Assembly: GCF_009696315.1 (NCBI RefSeq)
Contig: NZ_VUMG01000003.1
Coordinates: 372,001 to 436,000 of the forward strand
DNA length: 64,000 bases
Direction: 5' to 3'
Origin: Cutibacterium porci
GTDB taxonomy: Bacteria; Actinomycetota; Actinomycetes; Propionibacteriales; Propionibacteriaceae
Shown: one piece after another, positions 4,598 through 11,228 of the stretch
How positions within the stretch are numbered: position 1 is the stretch's first letter
How the letters are laid out: each line of letters opens with the position of its first letter
Notes under the pieces: generated by a model
What the model was told of the DNA's origin: nothing
The model's input: only the letters and a program-made list of their open reading frames with translations
Databases searched by the model: none
Made by a program: the position numbers and the translations under genes

Positions 4598-6100
4598 ATG
4601 CACTCCTCCCGCGCTGCCAGCCTGGCAGCCGTACTGGCGATGTCGCTATCTGCCGGGGTCGTCGGCGTTGCGAATGCAGAGCCGACTACCTCGACCGACC
4701 CAGCATCGTCAACCACTGCCACTACCAGCGCATCCGCAGCCTCCGACCCCACGGCAGACTCTTCTACGGAGGCTACCCAGGCACCCAAGCCGACTACCCA
4801 CGCACCTGAGTCGGCTGTTCAGCAAACCGAGTCGGCAGCCATCAGCTCACGGCCAGCACCGAAGGCTTCAACGTCGACGCCGTCGGCCTCCGCTCCGATT
4901 AAGGCCACGACGCAATCTGTTAATCCAAGCGCACCACTGTGGATGTACATCGCCACCGATCTGCGCACTGGCGCTGGAACTACTTTCCGATCCATGGGGA
5001 AGGTACCGGCTACCGCTCAGGTGAGTCGTCGCGGCCCAAACTACAAGGGTTGGGCTCCGATCCTCTACAAGACCACCAAGGCCTGGGTGCCCGCGAATAC
5101 CCTCACCACGTCGCGCCCTCATACCCAGTGGGTCTACCTTTCCTCTGACCTACGCACTGGTGCTGGAACGTCTTTCCGGTCCATGGGAAAGACCGCCACC
5201 ACTCATGCATTGGTACGCCGCGGCCCGAATTACAAGGGCTGGGCACCGGTGCTCTACAAGAACAAGCAAGGCTGGGTCCCCGGAAACACCCTCACCAGCT
5301 GGCACCCTCAAACCCAGTGGGTCTACCTTTCCTCTGACCTACGCACCGGCGCTGGAACGTCTTTCCGGTCCATGGGAAAGACCCATGCCACAACAATCCT
5401 GGTACGCCGCGGCCCGAACTACAAAGGCTGGGCACCGGTGTACTACCAAAATAAGCAAGCCTGGCTGCCCGGGAACACCCTCACGTCTACTCGTCCCCAA
5501 ACCTACTGGGTAAAGACAAATCAGACGATACGCACCGGCGCTTCGGCATCGGCGCGATCAATGGGTACCGCACACCAAGGCGATCGTGTCGTGCGCCGCG
5601 GCCCGAACTACAAAGGTTGGGCACCAGTCCTATTCAACAATAGGCAGACGTGGATCCCCGCGTCATCATTGTCGTCTAAGCGTGTCGCCGCCCCGCCAAC
5701 CACGCTGCCGATCTCGAATTCTGGTGTTCGCCTCGATCGCCGCTGCATGACCGGCACCGTTATTTGCGCATCCAAGAATCAGCGCAAGCTCTGGATGGTG
5801 CAAAACGGCCGCATTCTCATCACCCTTGATGCCCGATTTGGGCGGCCCAGCATGCCGACCGCCGAGGGCGTCCACTCGGTGTATTGGAAGGACAAGAACC
5901 ACATCTCGAGCAGCTACGGCTCTCCCATGCCGTACTCGATGTTCTTCTACAAGGGTCAGGCCATCCACTACTCGTCGGACTTCTCCCGCAACGGGTGGAA
6001 TGGCGCGTCCCACGGTTGCATCAACATTCGCAACATGACTGGTCTGAAGTGGCTGTGGGATCACACCCCAACTGGCCGCAAGATCATCGTGTTTAAGTGA
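4598..6100 (+). CDS. secreted L,D-transpeptidase with four SH3-like repeats
   Basis: A 500-residue exported cell-wall enzyme. Residues 1-28 form a Sec signal peptide ending VANA-E. Residues 29-112 are a Ser/Thr/Pro/Ala-rich linker. Residues 114-365 hold four tandem 63-residue SH3-type repeats, each built around RTGAGTSFRSMG, then RRGPNYKGWAPV and a final W-P-NTL. The C-terminal domain (about 390-500) is YkuD-type, with IHYSSD and the catalytic SHGCINIRN (His472, Cys474). Such enzymes cross-link peptidoglycan between two diamino-acid residues or attach molecules to it; the repeats probably bind the wall. A GAAAGG ribosome site precedes the ATG, and a strong hairpin follows the stop. The substrate is not deducible from the sequence. 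Confidence 0.9.
   Translation: MHSSRAASLAAVLAMSLSAGVVGVANAEPTTSTDPASSTTATTSASAASDPTADSSTEATQAPKPTTHAPESAVQQTESAAISSRPAPKASTSTPSASAPIKATTQSVNPSAPLWMYIATDLRTGAGTTFRSMGKVPATAQVSRRGPNYKGWAPILYKTTKAWVPANTLTTSRPHTQWVYLSSDLRTGAGTSFRSMGKTATTHALVRRGPNYKGWAPVLYKNKQGWVPGNTLTSWHPQTQWVYLSSDLRTGAGTSFRSMGKTHATTILVRRGPNYKGWAPVYYQNKQAWLPGNTLTSTRPQTYWVKTNQTIRTGASASARSMGTAHQGDRVVRRGPNYKGWAPVLFNNRQTWIPASSLSSKRVAAPPTTLPISNSGVRLDRRCMTGTVICASKNQRKLWMVQNGRILITLDARFGRPSMPTAEGVHSVYWKDKNHISSSYGSPMPYSMFFYKGQAIHYSSDFSRNGWNGASHGCINIRNMTGLKWLWDHTPTGRKIIVFK
4937..5692 (+). repeat. four in-frame 189-bp tandem repeats coding SH3-like units
   Basis: The first Trp codon of each unit lies at 4940, 5129, 5318 and 5507, an exact 189-base (63-codon) period. 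Units 2 and 3 are almost identical over their first 80 bases; unit 4 is the most diverged. Being in frame, recombination between units would change repeat number without breaking the gene. Confidence 0.9.
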
Positions 6101-6107
6101 CGACGAC

Positions 6108-6139
6108 GTATGGCCCGCATCCTTGGATGCGGGCCATAC
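6108..6139 (+). terminator. strong hairpin after the L,D-transpeptidase gene
   Basis: A 15-bp perfect inverted repeat (GTATGGCCCGCATCC and its complement) separated by two bases starts seven bases after the stop codon. The tip must open to leave a usable loop. There is no long T tract, but position and strength support a terminator. Confidence 0.75.
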
Positions 6140-6220
6140 TCATGCCCACTCCACCGCTGGCGATGGTCCCGCACTCGCCAGCGGCGAAGGCCTAGATACG
6201 ACGATCTACCTATGACATAG

Positions 6221-6252
6221 CACCGGCGCCGTACCGAGGTACGGCGCCGGTG
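6221..6252 (-). terminator. terminator of the transcarboxylase operon
   Basis: A 15-bp perfect inverted repeat (CACCGGCGCCGTACC with its complement, two bases between) lies 17 bases beyond the stop codon of the 1.3S gene on the minus strand. With the hairpin at 6108-6139 it separates the two convergent units. Confidence 0.7.
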
Positions 6253-6269
6253 TGGTCTTGATCCGAGGA

Positions 6270-6632
6270 TCAGCCCAGGGCCACCAGGCCCTGACCGCCC
6301 TGAACGGCGTCACCAACGGCCACCAAGATGCCCTTGACGGTTCCATCCGCCGGAGCATTGATCTCGGTCTCCATCTTCATGGCCTCGAGGGTCAGAAGCA
6401 CCTGACCGGCCTTAACGGCGTCACCCTCGGCCACGAGGATCTTGGCAACGGTACCGGCCAGCGGCGCGGGAACTTCACCCTCGCCAGCCTTACCAGCGCC
6501 ACCACCAGATGCCTTCATCGGGCCACCGGAGCCGCCGCCAAAAAGGATCGGCGCCATCGGCGCATTAGGGGTCTTATCAACGTCAACGTCCACGTCGTAT
6601 GCGACGTCATTGACGGTCACCTTGAGCTTCAT
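6270..6632 (-). CDS. methylmalonyl-CoA carboxyltransferase 1.3S subunit (biotin carrier)
   Basis: A 120-residue biotinyl carrier. The N-terminal 30 residues form a beta-rich start ([14 protein letters not shown]), a Gly/Ala-rich flexible linker covers about 31-52, and the biotinyl domain fills the rest, with the biotin-accepting Lys86 in EAMKMET. Size and design match the 1.3S subunit of propionibacterial transcarboxylase, where it carries the carboxyl group between the 12S and 5S active sites. Last gene of the four-gene minus-strand operon, 15 bases after the 80-aa gene and just before a strong hairpin. Biotin attachment needs a ligase encoded elsewhere. Confidence 0.95.
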
Positions 6633-6647
6633 GTCAGTTTCTCCAGG

Positions 6648-6890
6648 TCAACGAATCGAATGGTTCTGCTGAGCCCTGCGCCCCTGACGGACCCAGGTCT
6701 CACTCGGGGCGAAACGGACGGCCTGAACCTTTCCGTCGTTGCCCAGGTAAGCCGAAACGGCGGCGCAGATGGCGGCAAGCACGTCCTCAGGAACGTCCTT
6801 ACTCGTCTTCTTCAGCCGGGAAACTTCAGCCTCTAGCGCCGCGAGTCGCTTGTTCAGCGTCTCGATGACGAGTTCATTATTTTCACTCAT
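6648..6890 (-). CDS. small transcarboxylase-operon protein, OadG/epsilon-like
   Basis: An 80-residue protein set between the 12S and 1.3S genes. Residues 5-28 (ETLNKRLAALEAEVSRLKK) have heptad spacing and should form a coiled coil. The second half, VLAAICAAVSAYLG followed by VRFAPSETWVRQGR, resembles the C-terminal part of the small gamma/delta subunits of sodium-pumping decarboxylases and the small epsilon-type proteins of acyl-CoA carboxylases. It lacks their N-terminal membrane helix. The classical purified transcarboxylase has only 12S, 5S and 1.3S subunits, so this would be an accessory or assembly factor; that role is inference. Tight spacing on both sides (26 and 15 bases) argues for co-expression. 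Confidence 0.7.
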   Translation of the reverse strand: MSENNELVIETLNKRLAALEAEVSRLKKTSKDVPEDVLAAICAAVSAYLGNDGKVQAVRFAPSETWVRQGRRAQQNHSIR

Positions 6891-6916
6891 CTTGTCCTCC
6901 CATCAGCCTTATTCGC

Positions 6917-8491
6917 TCAGCACGGCATGACGCCGTGCTTCTTGGCCGGACGGGACTGACGCTTCGTGGCGTACGTCTCCAGAGCGGCAGTGATCTTGCG
7001 ACGGGTGTCGGCGGGATCGATCACGTCATCAACCTGCCCGCGGGCGGCAGCCACGTAGGGCGTGTTGAAGGCGTTGCGGTACTCCTCGATCTTCGCAGCA
7101 CGGGTGGCTACGGGATCCTCGGATTCCTTGATCTGACGACGGAAGATGACGTTGGCAGCGCCATCTGCACCCATCACCGCAATCTCCGCGCTCGGCCATG
7201 CATAGACGGCGTCAGCACCTAGGTCACGGTTACACATGGCCAGGTAGGAGCCGCCGTAGGCCTTACGCAGCACCACAGTGATCTTCGGGACGGTGGCCTC
7301 GGAGTAGGCGTACAGCATCTTCGCGCCGTGGCGGATGATGCCGCCGTACTCCTGCTGGACACCGGGCAGGAAGCCGGGAACGTCAACCAGCTGCACCAAC
7401 GGAATGTTGAACGAGTCACAGAAAGTGATGAACTCGGCAGCCTTGTCGGAGGCGTTGATGTCGAGGCAACCCGACATGACCTTCGGCTGGTTGGCGACGA
7501 TCCCGACGGTGCGACCATTGACCCGAGCAAAGGCAGTGACGATATTGGTCGCCCAACCAGCCTTGACCTCGAGGTAATCACCCCAGTCGACGATCTTGGC
7601 GATGACGTCACGAACGTCATAACCCTTCTTGCCGTCCAACGGAACGATGTCACGCAGCTCGGGCTGCGGTGAAACGTCATTATTGGGGTTGTAGATCTGG
7701 GCATCCTCAGTGTTGTTTTGCGGCAGGAAGCTCAGCAGCTTCTGCGCAATGAGCACTGCGGCGTCGTCATCTTCAGCAACGAAGTGGATGTTGCCCGAGG
7801 TGGACATGTGGGCATCCGCGCCGCCTAGATCGTCAGCGGTGACCTCCTCACCGGTGACCGACTTAATGACTCCAGGGCCCGTGATGAACATGTGGGCCTT
7901 CTTCGTCATGATGATGAAGTCGGTCAGCGCCGGAGAGTAAGAGGCACCACCGGCGCAGGGGCCAGCAATGATGGCGATCTGCGGCACAACGCCTGACAGC
8001 TTGACGTTCGCATAGAACATCTTGCCGTACCCGGACAGCGAGTCGATGCCCTCCTGGATTCGGGCGCCGCCCGAGTCGTAGAAGAACAGGAACGGGGTGC
8101 CAGTCAGCAGGGCCTGATCCATCGTCTCGACGACCTTGGTTGACTGAGTCTCGCCAGCCGACCCACCCATGACGGTGAAGTCCTGGGACGCGACATGCAC
8201 CGGACGACCATGAATGGTCGCACGACCGGTGACGACACCGTCGGCGGGAACCTCGGCCTTGTCCATGCCGAACAGAGTGGTGCGATGCTTGCGGAAGGCA
8301 CCGACCTCGTCAAAGGAGTAGGCGTCAACGAGATTGTCGATGCGCTCACGGGCAGTTTGCTTGCCCTTGGCGCGCTGCTTCTCGAGTCGAGCCTCGCCGC
8401 CGCCAAGTTCCACAGTGTGACGCTCGTCAGCAAGCTGCTCGATCCGGCCGGCCATGGTGTCGGCCAGCTTGATTGGTTTCTTTTCAGCCAT
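6917..8491 (-). CDS. mmdA: methylmalonyl-CoA carboxyltransferase 12S subunit
   Basis: A 524-residue carboxyltransferase of the crotonase-like acyl-CoA carboxylase beta family. It transfers the carboxyl group from methylmalonyl-CoA to biotin on the 1.3S subunit, giving propionyl-CoA. The N-terminal half has RERIDNLVD and FMGGSAG-type segments (FTVMGGSAGE), and the oxyanion-hole glycines in GPCAGGASYSPALTDF. The C-terminal half has the second set in KAYGGSYLAMCNRDLGAD, plus VDVPGFLPG. The C-terminus ends in a basic tail (KRQSRPAKKHG). It follows the 5S gene by 15 bases. Length and order are as in other propionibacteria. Confidence 0.95.
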   Translation of the reverse strand: MAEKKPIKLADTMAGRIEQLADERHTVELGGGEARLEKQRAKGKQTARERIDNLVDAYSFDEVGAFRKHRTTLFGMDKAEVPADGVVTGRATIHGRPVHVASQDFTVMGGSAGETQSTKVVETMDQALLTGTPFLFFYDSGGARIQEGIDSLSGYGKMFYANVKLSGVVPQIAIIAGPCAGGASYSPALTDFIIMTKKAHMFITGPGVIKSVTGEEVTADDLGGADAHMSTSGNIHFVAEDDDAAVLIAQKLLSFLPQNNTEDAQIYNPNNDVSPQPELRDIVPLDGKKGYDVRDVIAKIVDWGDYLEVKAGWATNIVTAFARVNGRTVGIVANQPKVMSGCLDINASDKAAEFITFCDSFNIPLVQLVDVPGFLPGVQQEYGGIIRHGAKMLYAYSEATVPKITVVLRKAYGGSYLAMCNRDLGADAVYAWPSAEIAVMGADGAANVIFRRQIKESEDPVATRAAKIEEYRNAFNTPYVAAARGQVDDVIDPADTRRKITAALETYATKRQSRPAKKHGVMPC

Positions 8492-8506
8492 AGTTGGCGA
8501 TCATCC

Positions 8507-10000
8507 TCACGCAGGCTCGACGGTCACCTGATGGCTGTTGCCACCGACCGTCACGTTGTAGTTGACCGGTCCGGCGATGCCAGCAGCGCCGGTGCCTTCC
8601 TTTTCGGCCTTCAGCTGTGCTTCGGTCATCGCGACGCTCTTCGGGCCCTGCGAGCGCTCCTTGAAGAACTTAGGAGCAACTCCCGGGAACAGGGCGTTGG
8701 TCAGAACATCTTCGTCGGAGCCATCGAAGCCCTCAAGGCTCTTGGCCTGCTCAACCAGCTGATCCCACTCGGGCTCAAGCAAGTCAGCAGGACGGCAATC
8801 GATCGGCTCCTTGCCGGTCTGCTTCTTAGCCATCTCGACGATCTCGGGGTTGAGCTCACCAATCGGCTTGCCGTAGTAGCCAAGCATGAGGTCAGCGAAC
8901 TCGGCAGTGAGGTTCTTGTAGGAACCGTTGCCCATGAGGACGTTGAACACGGCCTGAGTTCCGACAATCTGAGAAGACGGGGTGACCAGCGGCGGGTATC
9001 CGGCGTCCTTACGAACGCGCGGCACCTCCTTCATGACCTCATCCATGCGGTCGCCAGCCCCTTGAGCCTCGAGCTGGGACTCCATATTGGAGAGCATTCC
9101 GCCCGGGATCTGGGACTGGAAGATGTTGGTGTTCACCAGCGTCTTCGACTCGAACTTCTTGTACTTCGGGCGGACCTTCTTGAAGTGATCGCGGATCTTG
9201 AGCAGGCGATCCATGTCAAGCCCGGTGGTGTACTCGGTGCCCTCGAGCATTTCGACCAGCGACTCAGTCGGGTTGTGGCCAGGGCCAAGCGACATCGACG
9301 AAATGGCGGTATCGACGACATCGACGCCCGCCTCAATGGCCTTTTGCAGCGTAACCAGGGTGACGCCCGTGGTGGAGTGGCAGTGCAGGTTAATCTGCAC
9401 ATCCGGGTGGTTTTCCTTAATGCCCTTGATGATGTCGAATGCGGGCTGAGGCTTCAGCAGGGCAGCCATGTCCTTGAAGGCGATCGAGTCAGCGCCCATG
9501 TCGATGAGGCGATCGGCTTGCTTGACGAAGCTCTCAGGAGTGTGAATCGGGGAGGTGGTGTAGCAAATGGTGCCCTGGGCATGCTTGCCCGTCTTCTTGA
9601 CGGCGGCCATCGCGTGCTCAAGGTTACGAGGATCGTTGAGGGCGTCGAACACGCGGAACACGTCCATACCGTTCTCAGCCGACTTCTCGACGAACTTGTC
9701 GACGACCTCGTCGTTGTAGTGGCGGTAACCCAGGAGGTTCTGGCCGCGCAGCAACATCTGCAGACGCGAGTTCGGCAGCAGCTTACGGAAGGTACGCAGA
9801 CGCTCCCAGGGGTCTTCGTTGAGGAATCGGATGCAGGAATCGAAGGTAGCTCCACCCCAGCACTCAACGGACCAGAAGCCTGCTGCATCAATGTCAGCAC
9901 AGGCATCGACCATGTCCTCCATGGCCATGCGGGTGGCAAGCAGGCTCTGATGCGCGTCGCGGAGCACGAGCTCGGTAACGCCAATCTTTCGCGGACTCAT
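8507..10000 (-). CDS. methylmalonyl-CoA carboxyltransferase 5S subunit
   Basis: A 497-residue subunit related to the carboxyltransferase domain of pyruvate carboxylase. It moves the carboxyl group from carboxybiotin to pyruvate, making oxaloacetate. The HMGL-like barrel opens with TELVLRDAHQSL. The metal-site residues are visible: Asp15, Lys176 in DSIAFKDMA (carbamylated in the family) and the two histidines of NLHCHSTTG near 206-208. GGATFDSCIRFL and LLRGQNLLGYRHY are pyruvate carboxylase hallmarks. First gene of the operon, so the promoter should lie in 10001-10130, where a 13-bp palindrome sits. The last 25 residues are a short tail resembling the start of a biotinyl linker region but lack a biotin site. 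Confidence 0.95.
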   Translation of the reverse strand: MSPRKIGVTELVLRDAHQSLLATRMAMEDMVDACADIDAAGFWSVECWGGATFDSCIRFLNEDPWERLRTFRKLLPNSRLQMLLRGQNLLGYRHYNDEVVDKFVEKSAENGMDVFRVFDALNDPRNLEHAMAAVKKTGKHAQGTICYTTSPIHTPESFVKQADRLIDMGADSIAFKDMAALLKPQPAFDIIKGIKENHPDVQINLHCHSTTGVTLVTLQKAIEAGVDVVDTAISSMSLGPGHNPTESLVEMLEGTEYTTGLDMDRLLKIRDHFKKVRPKYKKFESKTLVNTNIFQSQIPGGMLSNMESQLEAQGAGDRMDEVMKEVPRVRKDAGYPPLVTPSSQIVGTQAVFNVLMGNGSYKNLTAEFADLMLGYYGKPIGELNPEIVEMAKKQTGKEPIDCRPADLLEPEWDQLVEQAKSLEGFDGSDEDVLTNALFPGVAPKFFKERSQGPKSVAMTEAQLKAEKEGTGAAGIAGPVNYNVTVGGNSHQVTVEPA

Positions 10001-10058
10001 GGGTCCATGATTCCACGAGACGAACGCACAGGGGCCACGTGGGTCCGTTTTTCATATC

Positions 10059-10071
10059 TGAACAATGTTCA
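10059..10071. promoter_or_regulatory. 13-bp palindrome between the transcarboxylase operon and sseA
   Basis: TGAACAATGTTCA is a perfect inverted repeat around one central base, 59 bases upstream of the 5S start codon and 60 upstream of sseA. An overlapping second inverted pair, TTCA-AC-TGAA, follows directly. The surrounding 40 bases are AT-rich. This looks like an operator for a dimeric repressor or activator, but no regulator gene is adjacent. Confidence 0.45.
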
Positions 10072-10130
10072 ACTGAATAATCACCCATCGCGAGAGTTCC
10101 AGGTCCTCGCTGCGGTGACATGATGCGACC

Positions 10131-10976
10131 ATGGCTGAGACCTTATGCCCTACCCCGGTAGTTGACCCAAAGACTCTGGCAGAACTGGTCGACGGCCCCG
10201 ACGCCGACCGCATCATCATCGTCGACGTATCCCCATGTCGGCCCGGAGTGCCTCACATTCCGCACGCCTTACCCTTCGACCTTGATGGCTCGATGAGTGA
10301 CCAGTCATCGAGCCTTCCGCACACCATGCCGTCACTGCTGCAATTTCAGAACCGATTACGAAAATTGGGAGTAAACAATGACTCCCACGTCATTGTTACC
10401 GAAGACGATTTTCTCTTCGCCTCGGCCCGGCCATGGTGGATGATGCACGCCTGTGGTTTTAACAACGCGTCCGTCCTCGAAGGCGGAAACGCCGGCTGGG
10501 TCGCCGCCGGCGGACGACTCACGACTGACATCACTCCAGCCCCAGAGCCCGGCACCGTCACCCTCACAGCGCTACCAGGGGCGATCATTGATCGAGATGA
10601 GGTACTGCGCATCATCGCCGCTAACGACGACCCAACTACTCCTCGCATCGTCGACGCCCGGTCAGCCGAACGGTTTGCGGGCAAGGTTGCGGAGCCTCGC
10701 ACTGGACTGCGATCGGGCCACATGCCGACTGCCACAAATCTGCCTTACACCGACATCATTGCTGATGGACGAATTCGCCCAGTTGAGGAACTGCGGCAGT
10801 TGATTGACGGAGCCGCCGGAGATCGCCCGATCGTTGCCACCTGTGGCTCGGGCGTGACGGCCTGCATTATTGCTCTGGCGGCCACCTTGGTCGGCCGCGA
10901 GGACATCGGCATATACGACGGTTCATGGAGCGAGTGGGCGCGACCTGGTAATACCCCAGTCGTCACCGACGCGTGA
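10131..10976 (+). CDS. sseA: 3-mercaptopyruvate/thiosulfate sulfurtransferase
   Basis: A 281-residue two-domain rhodanese. The N-terminal inactive domain covers about 1-140 (RPWWMMHACGF, LEGGNAGWVAAGG) and the catalytic domain about 150-281. The active-site Cys238 lies in CGSGVTA, the loop typical of 3-mercaptopyruvate sulfurtransferases rather than thiosulfate ones, which usually have basic residues there. IVDARSAERFAGK and GHMPTATNLPY are standard family segments. It moves sulfur from mercaptopyruvate to thiols or cyanide and takes part in cysteine breakdown and H2S chemistry. No clear ribosome site precedes the ATG, so translation may be leaderless. It diverges from the transcarboxylase operon. 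Confidence 0.9.
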   Translation: MAETLCPTPVVDPKTLAELVDGPDADRIIIVDVSPCRPGVPHIPHALPFDLDGSMSDQSSSLPHTMPSLLQFQNRLRKLGVNNDSHVIVTEDDFLFASARPWWMMHACGFNNASVLEGGNAGWVAAGGRLTTDITPAPEPGTVTLTALPGAIIDRDEVLRIIAANDDPTTPRIVDARSAERFAGKVAEPRTGLRSGHMPTATNLPYTDIIADGRIRPVEELRQLIDGAAGDRPIVATCGSGVTACIIALAATLVGREDIGIYDGSWSEWARPGNTPVVTDA

Positions 10977-11228
10977 GTCACCGCCACGGTTGCTTCGGGC
11001 ACCACCCTCATCGAGATGACGGCTCACCAGTCAACCGCAATCGCGGAGCGCCACGCACTGACGTTCACCACCCGACGTCTCATCAGGCTGGAAAGTGTGA
11101 TCGCACACCCCCAAATCCTCATATCAATAACACCACGCAGCACCCGATATGCAGCACACGTTAGTCTTTCCTTGTATACTACTAATACCCATCATGGGAT
11201 ACACTCCGACTCCAGAGGGGAGAATGCA

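Follow-up and report, generated by a model that had tools for sequence, protein, structure and literature searches.

In a 64,000-nucleotide stretch of Cutibacterium porci DNA (GCF_009696315.1, NZ_VUMG01000003.1, positions 372,001–436,000, forward strand), here called the window, a small open reading frame (ORF) lies in the transcarboxylase operon between the genes for the 12S and 1.3S subunits. We conclude that this ORF is a real protein-coding gene under purifying selection. On balance we lean toward the view that its product is a non-catalytic fourth component of transcarboxylase, corresponding in soluble form to the connector (OadG/MmdD, or delta) subunit of biotin-dependent sodium-pump decarboxylases, and that it would act by the full mechanism proposed below. 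The classic "three-subunit" enzyme probably has a fourth part.

A conserved small gene in the transcarboxylase operon

The features of the locus, by window coordinates, are the following.

8507–10000, minus strand: 5S subunit of transcarboxylase, 497 residues, first gene of the operon (NF008984, 986.7 bits against a cut-off of 827); its residues 293–488, on the same strand, form a PYC_OADA domain (PF02436, E 7.5e-57)
6917–8491, minus strand: 12S subunit, 524 residues, homologue of MmdA of the Na+-pump methylmalonyl-CoA decarboxylase (Carboxyl_trans, E 5.2e-197)
6896–6901, minus strand: Shine-Dalgarno-like GGGAGG, 5 nucleotides ahead of the ATG of the small gene (read from the sequence)
6648–6890, minus strand: small gene for a putative delta-like protein of 80 residues, ATG start, stop included (ORF and conservation)
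6804–6884, minus strand: predicted N-terminal coiled-coil helix, residues 3–29 (AlphaFold helix and hydrophobic heptad core columns)
6831–6848, minus strand: R-h-x-x-h-E trimerisation motif, here RLAALE, residues 15–20 (15 of 20 members)
6651–6794, minus strand: C-terminal domain, residues 33–80, resembling the OadG/MmdD tail (hhalign against 44 delta tails)
6270–6632, minus strand: 1.3S biotin carrier subunit, 120 residues (PF00364, Biotin_lipoyl, E 5e-21)

The small gene is separated from 12S by 26 nucleotides and from 1.3S by 15. The 5S, Carboxyl_trans and Biotin_lipoyl matches bear out the neighbours that the original prediction, made from the sequence alone, had named for it in a transcarboxylase operon.

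To follow the gene in other genomes we used both a protein search and a profile. The protein search recovered it in 25 of 57 related genomes: all nine of the genus, with C. porci among them, 16 of 24 further family members, and none of 24 from other families of the order. Loci were fetched from 20 of the 24 other matching genomes (G002, G004, G005 and G006 were not among them), and the order 5S–12S–small gene–1.3S held in all 20 as far as the contigs reach; 17 are whole, two have 5S cut by a contig end, and one starts inside 12S. Profile A1 has 20 members, comprising the window and 19 of these loci, with L041, identical to the window, left out.

A1 found the small gene in 43 of 57 Propionibacteriaceae genomes, and 5S exceeded the NF008984 cut-off in 42 of the same 57. 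Cross-tabulation by eye gave 41 small-gene genomes with 5S over the cut-off and two (G018, G076) with a partial 5S. Eleven genomes lack both genes; the weaker 5S-model matches on their long open frames we read as pyruvate carboxylase. The other three, draft genomes of a single genus (G015, G062 and G079), lack the small gene but match 5S, two of them partially, and a 12S search found no close 12S in any of them. What follows 5S in G015 is other sequence rather than 12S, and the sole 12S match, 50% identical, lies within an operon reading MmdA–OadG–biotin carrier–OAD beta (L215, 1621–5390; OAD_gamma E 1.8e-11, OAD_beta E 3.5e-142). G079 has 12S fragments of 49–56% identity with a similar OadG and biotin carrier, and searches of G062 gave no 12S match and no OAD_gamma match. 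Because a distant 12S lies inside a pump operon and an OAD beta gene occurs in all three genomes, a sodium-pump type operon appears to replace transcarboxylase in this genus, the beta gene being the one sign of it in G062.

OAD beta also exceeded its cut-off in 11 of the 43 genomes that carry the small gene, and therefore the two systems can coexist. Six propionibacterial transcarboxylase genomes (L224–L227, L230, L231) have a second, pump-type operon with a 12S homologue (52–53%) and an OAD_gamma gene. The genome of C. porci itself gave no match to OAD beta (PF03977) and none to OAD gamma.

In a phylum-wide sample of 396 genomes, A1 matched 15 at E up to 0.01. Beyond its own genome two matches were strong: G224, from the same class (E 4.9e-25), and G124, from a different one (E 1.1e-15); both belong to other families and have the complete 5S–12S–small gene–1.3S order. 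We treated the other 12 matches (E 7e-4 to 9e-3) as chance; one, G396, was inspected, and none of the four operon proteins matched within 14 kb of it. The original prediction had proposed to drop the idea of a fourth protein if the gene were absent from orthologous operons. It is present in all 20 loci and in two outside the family, and it tracks 5S across its 43 genomes.

The ratio of nonsynonymous to synonymous substitution rates (dN/dS), taken over the 10 pairs among five close orthologues, is 0.07–0.35 for the small gene and 0.03–0.19 for 12S, so that purifying selection is looser on the former. It is from these ratios that we call the ORF protein-coding and selected, and conservation together with dN/dS rules out a chance ORF. 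It could be supposed that the ORF is translated but functionally minor, kept for translational coupling of 12S to 1.3S, and its tight spacing and the absence of the C-terminal tail from three genomes would suit such a role. Its conservation at the protein level across families, the purifying selection, and the similarity of its profile to a pump subunit (below) speak against this, and we give the idea hardly any weight.

The gene has been reported before in another guise. In its account of the operon, a 2010 genome paper gives four coding sequences and describes Swiss-Prot entry Q8GBW6 as longer than the 524-residue product (PMC2909200). The same account matches PFREUD_18850 to the C-terminal part of Q8GBW6 at 98% similarity, takes it as the C-terminal part of 12S, proposes strain dependence, and states that a short 12S disagrees with crystallographic data (PMC2909200). 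The original prediction had suggested that the protein might have been missed because of its size. The ORF itself was thus already known as a fourth coding sequence; what we did not find, in the open-licence literature searched, was any description of it as a delta-like subunit.

We therefore weighed the reading of the 2010 account, in which the small ORF would be the C-terminal part of 12S, split or fused by strain, with the stop read through or altered by a sequence variant. Besides the longer Swiss-Prot entry and the stated conflict with crystallography, this reading can draw on 7 of 20 loci in which the small frame keeps the phase of 12S beyond the stop, on L022, where reading through the stop gives 610 residues, on a 12S length of 610 in a proteomics table (PMC6107788), and on 12S spots of 63.7–64.3 kDa, near the size of a 610-residue protein, in the part of another study that gives spot masses (PMC4537189). 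Against it, a stop codon closes 12S in each of the 20 loci; 7 of 20 is near the one third expected by chance, and in the window the 26-nucleotide gap puts the frames out of phase. The solved 12S (1on3, chain A) has 523 residues and ends where the window 12S ends (residues 2–524 aligned to 1–523 of 523), the small part being absent. The 12S row of the proteomics table reads 56.3 kDa, which fits about 524 residues (PMC6107788). For 5S the spot study gives 61.8–61.9 kDa (PMC4537189) and the table 55.5 kDa (PMC6107788), and because 5S too is high we take the spot masses as gel values running high. The sodium-pump counterpart is moreover a separate protein, and in the window the small gene has a separate stop, Shine-Dalgarno sequence and start. 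We consider a 12S fragment quite improbable, and read the long Q8GBW6 entry, known to us from its description in the 2010 paper (PMC2909200), as two proteins run together.

We note some further observations on the region. An opposite-strand ORF at 6252–6836 (194 residues), longer than the small gene, spans 1.3S and most of the small gene. A convergent ORF of 500 residues on the plus strand (4598–6100) carries, by eye, near-identical repeats of the WVYLSSDLRTGAGTSFRSMGK type and SHGCINIRN near its end; it may be a repeat-bearing L,D-transpeptidase. A scan of 5500–11000 against Rfam gave no match, and a 12S search of viral contigs gave no relative.

Resemblance to the connector subunits of sodium pumps

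The N-terminal coiled coil of the original prediction is borne out by hydrophobic heptad columns and by AlphaFold. All 20 members have I, L, V, M, F or A at positions 9, 12, 16, 19 and 23, and 19 of them do at position 26. AlphaFold, given the small protein alone, built one helix over residues 3–29 with a predicted local distance difference test score (pLDDT) of 73–84 in blocks of ten; for the protein as a whole the mean pLDDT is 69 and the predicted template modeling score (pTM) 0.33. An R-h-x-x-h-E motif stands in the a/d heptad frame in 15 of 20 members, a count reached in 21 of 2000 trials when the non-core coil columns were permuted. This pattern is named as a trimerisation motif in the relevant passage of PMC6173795, and it is a lead to a trimer, not proof of one. 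The highest hydropathy over 19 residues is 1.18 in the window protein and at least 1.6 in 1 of 20 members, versus 79 of 80 delta proteins; in the first 34 residues no member exceeds 1.14. The small protein is without a transmembrane segment, and its coiled coil stands in the place of the membrane helix.

The small gene also shares its position with OadG. We scanned bacterial genomes with three OadG proteins and confirmed 211 loci, and the locus counts given here are for the best 80 of the 211. A 12S homologue lies at most 200 nucleotides upstream in 73, a biotin carrier at most 500 nucleotides downstream in 73, and both are found in 69. The identities of these 12S homologues, about 33 to 64%, show that several types of pump are mixed in the set. 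The annotated order in Ilyobacter polytropus, Monoglobus and Persicobacter is 12S-type subunit–OadG–biotin carrier–beta, and the unannotated locus of Acetoanaerobium reads the same; in Parabacteroides, by contrast, the biotin carrier directly follows the 12S homologue and no OadG is annotated. As OadG is flanked by a 12S homologue and a biotin carrier, it occupies the same slot as the small gene does in transcarboxylase operons. In 47 of the 80 loci (L127, L131 and L132 among others) OadG is joined by homologues of both 12S and 5S and by a biotin carrier, as if transcarboxylase and pump parts were mixed.

For profile comparisons we took the C-termini of 19 small proteins (set A2, from which L040, lacking the tail, was excluded) and 44 delta C-termini from the best 80 loci, each with a 12S homologue at most 200 nucleotides upstream, an EL[IV]AV[IL] motif and at least 45 residues. 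The two sets aligned in hhalign over 45 columns with probability 95.8, score 42.4 and E 7.9e-9, hhalign E-values here applying to a single comparison; column-shuffled controls reached at most 15.6 and 17.2 (100 each) and a reversed control 14.5. Against three full OadG proteins the probability was 61.8 (E 7.6e-5), and against eight propionibacterial delta tails it was 77.8 (E 1.9e-5, score 28.6, shuffle maximum 20.45). The small protein and the delta tails share an acidic cap followed by an A-I-x-A-A-V/I helix and, after a variable loop, W-x-x-x-G-R. In HMMER, whose E-values apply to these small sequence sets, the small-protein profile recovered 26 of 82 delta proteins (best E 1.8e-6) and the delta profile 16 of 20 small proteins (best E 1e-5), both at E up to 0.01; the delta proteins of G015 and G079 (E 0.18 and 0.22) were not matched by the delta profile at 0.01. 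The C-terminal domain of the small protein, judged by these profiles, is very probably homologous to the delta tails.

As a further observation, Prevotella sp. oral taxon 299 has a short ORF lacking a membrane helix between a 12S homologue and a biotin carrier (L094, 6537–6722). It scored E 0.016 as a single sequence against the delta profile and 0.14 against the small-protein profile, and it is possibly, on weak grounds, a bare version of the delta-like domain. A sequence search of the PDB gave 6 matches for the small protein and 170 for A1; each of the 60 listed out of the 170 is either a coiled coil or a protein without an evident tie to carboxylases.

A proposed fourth subunit and its alternatives

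The direct results are the gene itself, how it is conserved, where it sits in the operon, the similarity of its profile, the absence of a transmembrane segment, and a genome in which neither OAD beta nor OAD gamma is matched; 12S binding, the trimeric state, the stoichiometry and a role in assembly are what we infer. Our best reading of the small protein is as a soluble, perhaps trimeric, delta-like subunit or assembly factor. Its C-terminal domain (acidic cap, A-I-x-A-A-V-x-A-Y-L-G helix, W-x-x-x-G-R tail) would bind the 12S hexamer, on the model of the OadG tail binding its own carboxyltransferase subunit. In place of the membrane helix and linker, the coiled coil at the N-terminus would join three copies, where the pump has its beta3-gamma3 membrane trimer. 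The hexamer would have room for two such trimers, a geometry that we infer (PDB 1on3 and 1on9, 12 chains in two entries). In this way the protein may aid the assembly or stability of the 12S/1.3S/5S complex, the role that we would most readily assign to it.

The pump side of this model comes from published work. In oxaloacetate decarboxylase (OAD), alpha is bound by the gamma tail, and less alpha co-purifies once that tail is deleted; beta and gamma assemble as beta3-gamma3, and the delta of methylmalonyl-CoA decarboxylase is a gamma homologue (PMC7274780). For glutaconyl-CoA decarboxylase, GcdD is proposed as a linker part (PMC7145394).

Several results weigh against this model and should be set beside it. 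A heptad pattern of V or I in position a and L in position d is also compatible with a dimer. The small-to-delta profile match spans about 45 alanine-rich residues, and hhalign is not sharp on some 50 columns of this kind, because two genuine sets of delta tails miss each other (probability 5.6, score 16.45) while acyl-CoA carboxylase epsilon proteins reach 41.5 (score 23.1) against the propionibacterial delta tails. The small protein scored 13.5 bits against OAD_gamma (PF04277; E 0.12), below the cut-off of 27, with 4 of 20 members matching at E up to 1 (best 0.02). Against MmdE (NF047904) it scored 12.9 bits where the cut-off is 65, residues 29–71 aligning to 10–52 of the 57-position model (E 0.074), with 4 of 20 members matching at E up to 1 (best 2.4e-4); a hand-written consensus run against NCBIfam and Pfam brought no gain (MmdE E 0.08). 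The tail W and R are lacking in G020, G057 and G063 (L040, L206, L207), where the gene ends early and the rest is conserved; the tails of G020 and G057 share the ending GRSGTxSLASA, and the lack in three genomes may therefore be two losses. A joint AlphaFold model, whose input was the 610 residues that L022 naturally offers in one frame when its 12S stop is read through, gave pTM 0.72 for the whole and pLDDT of about 42–82 for the small part, with no confident docking. Finally, classical transcarboxylase is described, in the passage on the enzyme, with three subunits (PMC2909200).

The small protein exceeded the cut-off of no curated family, and OAD_gamma and MmdE were the leads related to carboxylases. 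Membership of the OadG, MmdE or AccE families as such is ruled out by the curated cut-offs; the MmdE model itself matched none of the 396 phylum-sample genomes.

The original prediction had likened the C-terminal segment both to the small subunits of decarboxylase pumps and to acyl-CoA carboxylase epsilon proteins. The first half of this is upheld by the profiles, while the second is weak. Were the small protein a member of the epsilon family (AccE/PccE, PF13822), it would serve 12S as epsilon serves other carboxylases, and the two are similar in size. In a comparison with the epsilon set (16 rows, from which the misframed L111 was dropped beforehand), the hhalign score of 20.7 exceeded the shuffle maximum of 15.75, yet the probability was 21.7; PF13822 was not listed for the small protein in a Pfam scan whose filters drop most weak matches, and a clear PF13822 gene lies elsewhere in the genome (E 5.1e-13). 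Epsilon against the 44 delta tails scored 17.35 (probability 9.2). From the epsilon score against the propionibacterial delta tails, given above, the small protein, delta and epsilon may all be distant relatives. We regard epsilon membership as highly improbable.

A delta-like subunit might instead have the association domain of 5S as its partner, not 12S, and hold 5S dimers on the complex. The ground for this, which also tells against 12S binding, is the proposal that the OAD gamma tail binds the association domain of alpha, which has its homologue on 5S. The small gene tracks 5S, and the 47 OadG loci noted above unite the 12S homologue, delta and biotin carrier with a 5S homologue. On the other side, the delta slot directly follows the 12S homologue, also in 22 of the 69 both-neighbor loci where no 5S homologue was seen (about 4 kb on each side at most), and in the single pump operon that was scanned, that of G015, the 12S homologue gave no PYC_OADA match. 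We think a 5S partner unlikely, and retain 12S as the partner in our proposal.

An evolutionary extension of this proposal can be imagined, although we hold it to be doubtful. Transcarboxylase would be a Na+-pump methylmalonyl-CoA decarboxylase gone off the membrane, its connector subunit having kept the tail that binds the carboxyltransferase and exchanged the membrane anchor for a trimeric coil. Six copies, as two trimers, would cap the 12S hexamer on both faces and direct how 5S and 1.3S dock. In that case a long-studied enzyme would gain a fourth structural subunit.

Textbooks present transcarboxylase as a multienzyme complex of three subunits. A conserved fourth component of connector-like character would directly link it to the sodium pumps, would account for the long 12S entry in the database as a pair of proteins taken for a single one, and would be a concrete target for reconstitution, cryo-electron microscopy and work on propionate production.

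Comparison with known systems

AccE/PccE is likewise a small protein that works with a 12S-type carboxyltransferase. Its profile similarity to the small protein is weak, and epsilon is a separate gene in the same genome. MmdE (NF047904) is alike in its small size and aligns in part; the small protein lies far below the 65 bits of that model, has a coiled coil, and goes with the soluble transcarboxylase and not with a pump.

PFREUD_18850, the match to the C-terminal part of Q8GBW6 in P. freudenreichii, belongs to the same operon, and is compared here by its description in the 2010 account alone; there it is a piece of 12S, whereas here we take it as a separate, putatively delta-like protein (PMC2909200).

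The pump-type delta within the Propionibacteriaceae themselves (G015; L215, 3374–3793) has the C-terminal DDLAAIAAAVHFALG...W-V-x-x-G-R-x-x-x-N-H and sits in the same slot. It differs from the small protein in being a true OAD_gamma: it has a membrane helix, and its operon includes OAD beta. Relative to OadG/MmdD (PF04277) in general, the small protein is without the transmembrane helix, has a coiled coil, scores below the Pfam cut-off and comes from a genome with no beta match; both have the C-terminal alanine-rich helix, the W..GR tail and the slot between a 12S/MmdA-type carboxyltransferase and the biotin carrier.
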